From NCBI GenBank assembly GCA_025937235.1, contig JAICRU010000008.1, positions 1 to 59,232 of the forward strand: 59,232 nt of DNA. Direction: 5' to 3'. Positions 34,705 to 42,567 of the stretch are shown piece by piece. How positions within the stretch are numbered: position 1 is the stretch's first letter; each line of letters starts with the position of its first letter. Both the position numbers and the translations under genes were made by a program. A model generated the notes under the pieces. It was not told the origin of the DNA and ran no database searches. It worked only from the letters and a program-made list of their open reading frames with translations. Origin of the DNA: Acidimicrobiia bacterium. GTDB taxonomy: Bacteria > Actinomycetota > Acidimicrobiia > Spongiisociales > ZC4RG35.

Positions 34705-34769
34705 AGAGGCACATCTAAGTACGGTGCTCTGGTGCAACCGGTGCATCTCTTCCGGGGTTCTTCCTCGAG

Positions 34770-35285
34770 ATGGATGAGCTGACCGCTGAGCTGGCCCGCG
34801 ACCTGGATTCCTCCTTCCCTCATCTGGTGAAGAGGGCGGGCCCCGGTCTGTACTGGGGTTTGCGACGGCTATGCGGCGATCACCAGGAGGCCGAGGACCT
34901 CACCCAAGAGACCTTCATTCGGGCCTATCGGTCGCTCAGCGAGTTCGACCGGGCCCGCTTCGCGGACCTCCGGCTCTCGCCCTGGCTGTGGACCATCGCC
35001 CTCAATCTGGGCCGCAACCACCTGCGCAACAGGTCACGACGCCCGGTCTTTGTGGAGATGACCGACCATGGGGACCATGATCCCGAGCCTCCCGATACCG
35101 CAGCATGGGATGCGCGTCTGTCAGCCCTCACGATCAACCAGCGCCGCGCGGTCGTGCTGCGCCACGTCGTGGGTCTTGGCATCGGCGAGATCGCGGAGGC
35201 AACCGGGCGACCCGAAGGGACGGTAAAGGCAGACATCCATCGTGGACTGGAACACTTGAGACGAGTGATGGAGCAAGAACGATGA
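34770..35285 (+). CDS. ECF RNA polymerase sigma factor
   Basis: LCGDHQEAEDLTQETFIRAYRSLSEFD (region 2); NQRRAVVLRHVVGLGIGEIAEATGRPEGTVKADIHRGLEHLRR (region 4). Confidence 0.94.
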   Translation: MDELTAELARDLDSSFPHLVKRAGPGLYWGLRRLCGDHQEAEDLTQETFIRAYRSLSEFDRARFADLRLSPWLWTIALNLGRNHLRNRSRRPVFVEMTDHGDHDPEPPDTAAWDARLSALTINQRRAVVLRHVVGLGIGEIAEATGRPEGTVKADIHRGLEHLRRVMEQER

Positions 35286-36037
35286 GCATCGAACAACGAC
35301 TCTCAGGGCTGGCAGGCGCACTGCCCGAGGGGATTGCCGAAGGGGTGGCCCTGGGCACCGGACTGGCCGACGGCTACGACATCTACGCCTCCCCTGTGGG
35401 CGAGGTCGTGATCACCTTCAACATCGAAGGAGTCTCGTCGGTTGATCTCGCCACGACCGGCTTCGAGGGCCGCTTCGCCTCCCGATACGGGCGACCGCTG
35501 CTTCGGGCCGAGCCCCCGCGCCAGTGGGCCAAGCACATCCCGGAGGCGATGGAGGCAGGCACGCCCGGCCGCCTCCCTGTCGATCTGAGGTCCCGCACGC
35601 CGTTCGAGGTGAAGGTGCTGCGGATCGCCGCATCCATCCCCCGAGGCGAGGTCAGGCCCTACGGATGGCTGGCTCGGGAGGCCGAGCGCCCGGACGCCGC
35701 CCGTGCCGTGGGCTCGACCATGGCCCGCAATCCCATCCCACTCATCATCCCCTGTCACCGGGTGGTGCGCTCCGACGGGCACCTCGGGGAGTACTCCCTG
35801 GGCGGCACACACAACAAGTGGGATTTGCTGCGGCGTGAGGGTGTGGATCTGGGGCATCTGGTCGAGTTGGCCGAGCACCACGTCCGGGTCCAGGCAGACC
35901 CGTCAACCGGCGTGTACTGCCACCCGACCTGTCACGTCATCCGAGCTTCGGGGCAATGGAACGTCGTCGACTTCAAGACAACCGTTGCAGCGCGGGCTGC
36001 CGGGTTCGAGCCCTGCCCGGAGTGCCGTCCCGGGTAG
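35282..36037 (+). CDS. Methylated-DNA-protein cysteine methyltransferase with C-terminal Ada-type zinc domain
   Basis: MGMT active site IPLIIPCHRVVRSDGHLGEYSLGG; C-terminal TGVYCHPTCHVIRASGQWNVVDFKTTVAARAAGFEPCPECRPG; ATGA overlap with sigma gene. Confidence 0.93.
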   Translation: MSIEQRLSGLAGALPEGIAEGVALGTGLADGYDIYASPVGEVVITFNIEGVSSVDLATTGFEGRFASRYGRPLLRAEPPRQWAKHIPEAMEAGTPGRLPVDLRSRTPFEVKVLRIAASIPRGEVRPYGWLAREAERPDAARAVGSTMARNPIPLIIPCHRVVRSDGHLGEYSLGGTHNKWDLLRREGVDLGHLVELAEHHVRVQADPSTGVYCHPTCHVIRASGQWNVVDFKTTVAARAAGFEPCPECRPG

Positions 36038-39812: not shown

Positions 39813-40097
39813 TTGCCTGCAGATGACCCTTCCAGCCGTGCAGTCGTCACTTGCGACATGGGAGCGGTCTCCTCGCCCGATCTCGGGACCGTCGATGCCG
39901 TGTGTCGTCTCCGCATGTCGGTGGTTCAGATGGGATACGTCCTTCGTCTCCGAGATGCCACACCCGAGCTCGAGGAGTTGCTCACCCTGTGCGGGCTGGG
40001 CGACAGCTCATTTCTCGTAGCTGAGCGGCAGGCCGAAGAGGGGGAAGAGCCGTTCGGTGTCGAGGAAGAAGTTGAGCCCGGTGATCGAACCACCTGA
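39813..40097 (+). CDS. Small STAS-like protein (inferred), antisense-overlapping the sigma gene
   Basis: TTG start; [82 protein letters not shown]. Confidence 0.6.
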
Positions 40098-40997
40098 CAT
40101 CTCCAGCACCTGGAGCGCCCAGGGGGCATGGCCACCTCCCGGGTCGGGTTTGTACTGGCCGAATGCGGGCAGACCGTTGGCCGGGCCCGCCGGGACAACC
40201 ACCGAGCCGCGGCACCCGATACCAGTGCCGAGGAAGAACCGCGTCACTTGCTCCGGGCCGCGGAGCCACATCCCGTAAGGCGGCATCGACTGGACCACGT
40301 CTTCGTGGAGCAGCTCGACCAGGGCGTCCAGGTCGTAGCGCTCGAAGGCGTCGACGTATCGGTGGAGGAAGGCCCTCTGGTCATCATCGAGTGGGCGGTG
40401 GGGGTCGGATTCTCCAGGGCTGTGCTCCGCCAGGGTCGCCCTGGCCCTCTGCAAAGCGCTGTTGACCGAAGCCACGGTGGTGTCGAGCAACTCGGCCACC
40501 TCGTTGGCCTGCCACCTCAGCACGTCACGCAGGATCAGGACCGCGCGTTGCCGCGATGGCAGGTGTTGGAGGGCGGCGACGAATGCGAGCCTCACCGAGT
40601 CACGGGACACGGCGACGTCGGCTGGATCGGGACCAGCAGGCAGCAGGATGCCGTCGGGCGCCGGCTCCAGCCAGGTGATCTCGGGGAGTGGAGCCGGCAG
40701 CATCGTGTCCGCACTCGACGCGGGCCCCAGGTCCATCGGCCTGGCCCGGCGGTCCCGTCCCTTCAGCATGTCGAAGCAGACGTTGGTCGTGATCCGGTAG
40801 AGCCAGGTTCGCAAGGCGGAGCGGCCCTCGAAGCGATCCAGCGCCCTCCAGGCCCGGACCATGCTCTCCTGTACAGCATCCTCGGCCTCGAACGGCGAGC
40901 CCAGGAGCCGGTATGCATACCCGGTCAGCTCCGAGCGGTATGGCTCCAGGTCCTCGAAGGAGGGGGCTTGTCGCCCGGTTGTGATGGATTCGGCCAT
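40008..40997 (-). CDS. ECF sigma factor with C-terminal SnoaL-like domain (SigG/TIGR02960-like)
   Basis: [96 protein letters not shown]-terminal NTF2-like region. Confidence 0.93.
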
Positions 40998-41110
40998 GCC
41001 CGCTCCGATCGCTCGTTCTACGTCTCCAGTCGGAGGGGGAATGAGCCCCCTGCCCGATGACCCGACATCAGCATCGATCGATTCTGGTCCTGATTGCGCT
41101 CTATGTACGT

Positions 41111-41133
41111 GGGGTAACCCGGAAGGGGTAACC
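41111..41133. promoter_or_regulatory. Tandem GGGGTAACC direct repeats in sigma/oxidoreductase divergent region
   Basis: GGGGTAACC at 41111-41119 and 41125-41133, 14-bp period. Confidence 0.5.
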
Positions 41134-41175
41134 GAAAGCCGGGCGGTAAGGATCCCGAATTCGAAGGAGATTGTC

Positions 41176-42567
41176 ATGCAGCAGTCGTCCCAGACGCCGA
41201 AGACACCGTCCGTCGCTCAGCTAGGTCAGGTCCTCACCGGCGAGGTGATCGGGCCCGAGGACTCTGGGTATGACGAAGCACGGGCGGTTTTCTACGGCAT
41301 AGATCGCAAGCCGGCAGCGATCGTCCGGCCTACGGACGCCGACGAAGTCGCATACGTCGTGTCGATCGCACGGGACACGGGGATCGAGCTGGCCGTTCGC
41401 AGCGGTGGTCATAGCATCGCCGGGCACTCGGTGACCGATGGTGGGCTCGTCCTCGATCTGTCGGCGATGAAAGAGATGCGCATCGATGACGAGAAGAGGA
41501 CAGTGTGGGCACAGACCGGTCTCACAGCAGGAGAGCTGACCGGTGCTCTCGGTCGGCATGGGCTGGCGGTCGGGTTCGGCGACACGGGCTCGGTGGGGAT
41601 CGGTGGCCTGACGCTGGGAGGTGGAGCCGGCTTCCTGTCCCGCAAATTCGGTCTGACCATCGACTCGCTCCTCGCCGCCGAGTTGGTGACCGCCGACGGG
41701 AAGGTGACTGAGGTCGACTCGGAGAACCATCCCGACCTCTTCTGGGCAATCAGGGGAGGAGGCGGGAACTTCGGCGTGGCGACCAGGTTCTTGTTCCGCC
41801 TCCAGGAGGTGGACGAAATCTTGGGCGGGATGCTGATCCTCCCCGCGACGGCGGACAACATCTCCTCGTTCGTCGAGCTCGCCGCGTCGGCTCCGGAGGA
41901 GCTGACGACGATCGCCAACGTCATGAAGGCGCCACCAATGCCTTTCCTCCCCGAGGATCTGGTCGGCCGGCCTGTGCTCTTCTCGATCCTCGTCTACGCA
42001 GGTGAGGTCGAGACCGGAGCGGAAGTCGTGGCCCCCTTCCGCGGCCTGGACACGCCCATCGTCGACATGGTGGAGCCGGGCATCTACGCCGGGATCTACG
42101 AGGCAGGGGAAGAGGAACAGGCGCCACCGTTCACCTTCGCAGTCCGGAACCTGTTCGCCGACGACATCGACAAGTCCGACGGCGATGCGATCCTCGAAGC
42201 TCTGGAGACGTCGACCGCCCCGATGGCCGTCACCCAGATCAGGGTGATGGGTGGCGCGGTGGCGCGGATGCCCGACGACGCAACCGCGTATGGGCACCGC
42301 AGTCGGCCGATCATGATCAACGTGGCTTCCGCCTATGCGGACCCAACCGAGAGGACGACTCACGAAGCCTGGGTAGACACCTTGGCCAAGACCCTGGGCA
42401 GGGGTGGCGAAGAGGCCTATGTCAACTTCCTCGGCGATGTCGCCGAGGCCAGGGTGAGGCAGGCCTATCCAGGTGGGACCTGGGACCGGCTCCGAGAAGT
42501 CAAGCGGCGCTACGACCCGGGGAACCTGTTCCGTCTCAACCAGAACATCCCTCCGGCCGGCGCCTAA
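41176..42567 (+). CDS. FAD-binding (BBE/VAO-type) oxidoreductase
   Basis: [81 protein letters not shown] Shine-Dalgarno. Confidence 0.95.

Follow-up and report, generated by a model that had tools for sequence, protein, structure and literature searches.

An ECF sigma factor operon with a two-acceptor MGMT and Ada-type zinc protein: a probable alkylation-response module

Introduction

In the textbook model, the adaptive response to alkylation is built on the AraC-type regulator Ada. The window analysed here (the whole stretch of DNA, 59,232 nucleotides in length, from an Acidimicrobiia bacterium) contained at positions 34770-36037 on the forward strand an ECF sigma factor gene followed by a gene for a protein with a 6-O-methylguanine DNA methyltransferase (MGMT) domain and an Ada-type zinc module (AdaZn). 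An earlier note made from the sequence had proposed that the sigma factor supplies the transcription output which the AraC domain supplies in Ada. The question was therefore whether the two genes form an alkylation-response module, and what the partner protein does to the sigma factor.

Operon layout and domain composition

The features of the locus were as follows:

34733..34738, + strand: -35-like element TGCAAC, conserved in relatives with a 15-base spacer and a perfect match in the window
34754..34761, + strand: -10-like element GGGGTTCT, 8 bases before the sigma ATG (upstream alignment, motif scan)
34770..35285, + strand: gene for an ECF sigma factor of 171 aa with regions 2 and 4 (Pfam Sigma70_r2 and Sigma70_r4_2; NCBIfam sigma70-ECF above cut-off)
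35282..35285, + strand: ATGA overlap of the sigma stop and the partner start, translational coupling (sequence)
35282..36037, + strand: partner protein, 251 aa, with N-terminal extension, MGMT and C-terminal Ada-type zinc module (Pfam, structure model)
35282..35365, + strand: two-helix N-terminal extension (aa 1-28) with consensus L..L...AP......V, which may bind the sigma factor (conservation in sigma-linked members)
35600..35845, + strand: MGMT DNA-binding/catalytic domain, aa 107-188 (PF01035; nearest PDB sequence match 1sfe, the C-terminal domain of Ada)
35753..35755, + strand: Cys158 (PCHRVV), predicted O6-methylguanine methyl acceptor (invariant in 61/61)
35900..36031, + strand: Ada-type zinc module and predicted methylphosphotriester acceptor, aa 207-250, with Cys213, Cys217, Cys245 and Cys248 (PF02805, N-Ada match)

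The coordinates, reading frames and ATGA overlap were as the earlier note had given them, while the promoter (34733-34761) and the conserved extension of some 28 aa at the partner's N-terminus had been overlooked in it. Pfam placed Sigma70_r2 at aa 19-91 (57.6 bits) and Sigma70_r4_2 at aa 113-163 (48.6 bits) of the sigma factor, which has regions 2 and 4 and lacks region 3, as is characteristic of an ECF protein. The operon was flanked by a divergent gene for a predicted membrane protein upstream and a transketolase gene downstream. The claim that no anti-sigma gene lies adjacent held for a separate gene, as none was found among the genes adjoining the pair, but the most plausible anti-sigma candidate is the repair protein itself. 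Further along the window (40008-41177, - strand), a second sigma factor had a long C-terminal SnoaL-like extension and by eye resembled the ECF41/SigJ type; its gene and an FAD-linked oxidase gene (about 40861-42567) point away from each other.

The partner matched MGMT (PF01035) with 97 bits (Pfam cut-off 27) and Ada_Zn_binding (PF02805) with 40.8 bits (cut-off 23), and no further domain, including an HTH, was recognised by Pfam. The complete MGMT, the C-terminal C4 module and their inverted order without an HTH had all been read correctly from the sequence. A sequence comparison of the C-terminal segment with the PDB gave 1adn residues 31-74 (E 1.2e-5) and no credible match beyond N-Ada, the next matches being antibody chains at E >= 0.15. 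The AlphaFold model of the partner was compact (pLDDT 95.5, pTM 0.89), with a body resembling MGMT structures (1sfe, TM 0.81 on target) and a C-terminus that superposed on the methylated, DNA-bound N-Ada 1u8b with an rmsd of 1.8 over 51 columns (probability 1.00).

Seven MGMT residues (Y127, R141, N150, C158, H159, R160 and E186) were unvarying across a 61-member alignment, and the four zinc cysteines were retained in 55-56 of the 56 members having the zinc module. The domain reading is not a product of chance because these residues are conserved. With its catalytic residues intact, the MGMT of the window protein is probably a working repair enzyme. Cys213 is the counterpart of Ada Cys38. Ada Arg45 may match Arg221, which is near-invariant in relatives, with the alignment shifted by one residue.

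The partner thus shares with E. coli Ada the two methyl-acceptor modules, MGMT (1sfe) and the N-Ada C4 zinc module (1adn, 1u8b). Unlike in E. coli Ada, their order is reversed with the zinc module at the C-terminus, there is no AraC HTH, the A-box contact Arg71 appears not to be kept (E247 in the window protein, mostly V/H/L in relatives), and transcription output apparently comes from a separate ECF sigma factor. A search of the window's own genome (assembly 96.7% complete) found no second Ada-zinc domain, so that no AraC-type Ada is evident in it.

Conservation of the gene pair

A sigma gene lay directly upstream of 86/88 distinct proteins with MGMT followed by AdaZn, counted where at least 400 bases of upstream sequence were present. 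The two unpaired cases were a second copy in locus L200 and locus L204, whose protein starts almost at the MGMT fold. Homologues were found in 59/60 relatives, a part of these matches being other MGMT proteins, and also in other classes of Actinomycetota. Named genomes with homologues included Acidimicrobiia, Nonomuraea, Streptosporangium, Actinokineospora, Chloroflexota, Dormibacterota and others, and plasmid homologues occurred in Rubrobacter radiotolerans, Nonomuraea and Streptomyces. The pair itself was present in Actinomycetota and in Chloroflexota/Dormibacterota-type genomes. Classical Ada proteins of one family (L049, L050), and L216, were put aside as belonging to a different system.

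Two genera (g10 and g15) and locus L047 had lost the zinc module and retained the sigma factor together with the N-terminal extension, and the extension was missing in the sigma-less copies L046 and L204. The extension thus appears to track the sigma factor and not the zinc module, and is a candidate sigma-binding segment.

In three loci (L198, L230 and L200, the last a Ktedonobacteria MAG), MGMT-AdaZn proteins stood beside other, weakly matching sigma types; L200 had two consecutive MGMT-AdaZn genes.

Promoter and candidate targets

Alignment of the DNA ahead of the sigma gene gave the consensus TGCAAC-N15-[AG]G[GT]GTTC (TGCAAC-N15-RGKGTTC), with the sigma start codon usually about 8-9 bases past the motif; in the window, the promoter spans 34733-34761 and the ATG is at 34770. 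From this short distance, the operon transcript is probably leaderless or nearly so. Class variants included, the motif was found in 85/102 loci against 0.0008 per shuffled sequence, the 102 loci not being independent, since some come from close relatives and a few genomes contributed overlapping stretches. Several of the loci without a match deviated by one base. The variants were TGAAAC...GTGTT in Rubrobacter-type loci and TGCAAC...GGTGTTGTA in Nonomuraea, and the motif was common to loci with and without the zinc module. A strict Rubrobacter pattern recovered its own operon in only 2/10 genomes because it was too narrow. An ECF sigma factor typically drives a distinct promoter, most often that of its own gene. 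Here the conserved motif precedes the sigma gene, and the sigma factor may recognise it and regulate its own transcription.

In whole-genome scans, a genome had about 1-3 exact copies of the motif, many more than with the reversed pattern as control. The window's genome had two perfect sites. One belongs to this operon; the other stands 7 bp ahead of an EamA exporter gene, which is a target in many relatives as well. Thirty sites outside the main operons were read. EamA/DMT genes followed 15 of them, at +6 to +33, and PQ-loop membrane protein genes followed three; a further site stood before a sigma gene of the family described here and another, in genome G013, before a gene for an S26-peptidase/HhH-GPD glycosylase fusion. 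In each of six Nonomuraea genomes of 10-14 Mb there was a single site, which where checked was the one before the sigma gene.

About ten of the 30 sites, perfect matches in relatives, had no sensible gene downstream and were taken as chance, and the one-mismatch sites in the window's genome (L107-L109) were rejected as targets for lack of a convincing common logic. The PQ-loop genes were SWEET-like and came from three related genomes of one genus (g11: L142, L143 and L144). The fusion in G013 (contig C5, L147) joins a signal-peptidase-like S26 domain to an HhH-GPD DNA glycosylase, an unusual combination, and its gene starts 44 bases past a perfect sigma promoter motif.

Fusions and variants linking the partner to sigma control

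Genes fused in one organism usually cooperate in others. A natural fusion of sigma factor and partner was absent from the genome loci and was found once, on a Streptomyces plasmid (NBC_00212): protein WP_331721395.1 combined sigma region 4 with MGMT and Ada_Zn in a single chain of 448 residues, with sigma region 2 not recognised by Pfam. The existence of this one-chain protein links the partner to sigma control. The fusion and three further Streptomyces partners (L104, L261 and L263) had an MGMT without the base-flipping residues, the conserved Tyr (Y127) and the Arg finger (R141), and retained the acceptor Cys158 and all zinc cysteines. An intact, separate MGMT gene followed the degenerate partner in L104, L261 and L263, which indicates that regulation and repair have been separated in Streptomyces.

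A second variant was found in five Eremiobacterota loci (L211, L213, L214, L218 and L225), where the gene for a protein with an N-terminal H-x3-C-x2-C zinc finger, of the kind found in ZAS anti-sigma factors, fused to MGMT overlapped an ECF sigma gene; a locus of Chloroflexia (L207) had a like layout. The H-x3-C-x2-C motif was invariant across the five proteins, and Pfam zf-HC2 was just below its cut-off in 3/5 members (best 22.0 against 22.2 bits). Apparently, the Eremiobacterota protein combines an anti-sigma factor and a DNA-repair domain. By eye only, the segment after its finger (LPxPxPSCDLxxKVxxHI) resembles the window extension L..L...AP......V.

The association was also modelled by AlphaFold with a sigma-MGMT read-through chain from locus L183, a modelling device and not a natural protein. 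The alignment for this was assembled in blocks, with in-frame read-through loci as anchors. The model reached a pTM of 0.70, with a pLDDT of about 45 for the first N-terminal helix, and contained no confident docking of sigma factor and partner. Its sigma half resembled SigW in the RsiW complex (TM 0.81-0.83), a likeness given little weight because AlphaFold may favour the closed form regardless. Structure prediction thus speaks neither for nor against a complex.

Four Streptomyces plasmid operons (L104, L261, L262 and L263) lay among SARP regulators and variously metF/metH, P450 and PLP-decarboxylase genes, and may serve for self-protection within gene clusters that produce an alkylating compound.

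Proposed mechanism and alternatives

The operon is a real, conserved and probably functional alkylation-response module, and its partner protein is probably a cytoplasmic regulator of the sigma factor, most likely a methylation-released anti-sigma factor. Comparative evidence gives good support to the proposal that the output of Ada's AraC domain is here taken over by the sigma factor: the pairing, the promoter, the small regulon, the fusion and the sole Ada-zinc domain of the genome all speak for it. The best explanation, with a probability of about 0.6, is a self-contained switch in which the partner is both repair enzyme and methylation-released sigma inhibitor. The sigma factor would recognise TGCAAC-N15-RGKGTTC before its own gene and, in this bacterial order, before the EamA exporter gene. 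In the cytoplasm, the N-terminal extension and MGMT body would hold it inactive in an anti-sigma-like manner. Methyl groups would pass irreversibly to Cys158 from O6-methylguanine and to Cys213 from methylphosphotriesters or straight from the alkylating agent. Methylation of either or both cysteines would open the complex and free the sigma factor to bind RNA polymerase, whereupon more sensor and exporter would be produced, and new unmethylated sensor would shut the response off once the damage was gone.

The analysis established the anatomy of the locus, the pairing, the promoter, the candidate targets, the fusions and the variants with degenerate MGMT. We infer that the partner binds the sigma factor, that the sign of its action is inhibition released by methylation, and that alkylation induces the system. 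The narrower proposal that a two-acceptor suicidal repair protein acts as a one-shot anti-sigma factor, each repair event directly freeing an ECF sigma factor, is tentative and falls a little short of even odds; it would be, to our knowledge, the first anti-sigma factor with the repair reaction itself as signal. Against the switch stand the missing confident docking in the L183 chain model, the zf-HC2 scores under the Pfam cut-off, and a tiny regulon in which the HhH-GPD repair glycosylase is a candidate target in one genome only. Conservation and autoregulation, moreover, equally fit a partner that activates the sigma factor.

Such an activator is the main rival to the anti-sigma reading. The methylated MGMT-AdaZn protein would bind the sigma factor or RNA polymerase and aid it at the target promoter, as in E. 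coli, where the C-terminal MGMT domain of Ada contacts RNA polymerase and Ada-driven transcription requires the sigma subunit (PMC4437013). The one-chain fusion fits activation as well as inhibition, and the near-invariant Arg221 of the zinc module is also in its favour. However, the anti-sigma-like zinc-finger-MGMT fusions occupy the same operon slot, the position equivalent to A-box Arg71 is mostly V/H/L, there is no HTH, and the sigma pairing survives loss of the zinc module, so that positive co-regulation is unlikely, at somewhat better than one chance in five.

Slightly less probable, at about one chance in five, is a compound-specific defence, in which an alkylating natural product or endogenous methyl donor is exported by EamA and DNA repair is secondary. 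EamA as the main extra target and the Streptomyces plasmid versions near SARP regulators, P450, PLP-decarboxylase or metF/metH genes agree with it, but in Nonomuraea the specific motif finds the sensor operon only. This defence can be compatible with the methylation-released switch. The least probable alternative is a plain operon whose sigma factor is controlled otherwise (for example through its own transcription) and drives a repair enzyme that makes no contact with it, as the putatively autoregulatory promoter with its probably nearly leaderless transcript, the intact MGMT catalytic residues and the listing of ECF122 among groups without known mechanism (PMC8999054) would allow, but the fusion, the degenerate Streptomyces MGMT beside an intact one, the zinc-finger-MGMT forms and the sigma-linked extension are hard to explain by it.

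The methylation-released switch is a well-founded hypothesis from sequence comparison, and the module would be a variant of both ECF signalling and the adaptive response. If true, it would give the bacterial adaptive response a second architecture, spread across several phyla and replacing AraC-type Ada; bacteria without AraC-type Ada may have built equal logic on an ECF sigma factor. It offers a concrete mechanism for MGMT-linked ECF groups, names a promoter and first targets, and indicates an exporter as part of alkylation defence.

Relation to known systems

Several ECF groups (ECF41, ECF42 and ECF56) have C-terminal regulatory extensions. The Streptomyces NBC_00212 fusion is alike in carrying its sensor as a C-terminal sigma extension and unlike in that this extension is MGMT-AdaZn. 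Pairs of sigma factor and zinc-containing anti-sigma factor (ZAS, SigW-RsiW) share with the window the two-gene sigma-regulator operon with overlapping genes, and in the Eremiobacterota relatives the H-x3-C-x2-C motif is joined to MGMT, whereas the window protein is without this zinc finger and without a recognised membrane anchor. According to the available portion of a Caulobacter Ada study, Cada2/AdaA-type activators show methylation-dependent activation of a small repair regulon and bind DNA themselves, unlike the window system; that portion describes varied domain orders of Ada-type proteins and mentions no sigma partner (PMC10957082).

The three points on which the earlier reading could have failed came out in its favour where they could be searched: the C-terminal segment matches the zinc profile, the pairing is conserved, and no prior account of this order with an unrelated function was found. 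In the literature that could be searched, no paper was found to describe MGMT-AdaZn in this order together with a sigma factor, nor the AdaZn module, promoter, targets, fusion or zinc-finger-MGMT forms for sigma-MGMT systems. The sigma-MGMT association itself is already listed for ECF122. In the 2022 review (PMC8999054), which cites the 2021 reclassification by Casas-Pastor et al., ECF122 has a Cellulomonas representative, a conserved 6-O-methylguanine DNA methyltransferase neighbour, no anti-sigma factor and an unknown mechanism. The window sigma factor is alike in neighbourhood, with its MGMT neighbour and the lack of an anti-sigma gene.

Two different sigma-MGMT types exist, the window type and a type with plain MGMT (L048 and L101, two loci without the TGCAAC-GGKGTT promoter). 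In L048, L101 and L228, a different ECF-type sigma gene stood immediately upstream of a plain Ogt-like MGMT gene, and sigma factors of this type may be the true ECF122.
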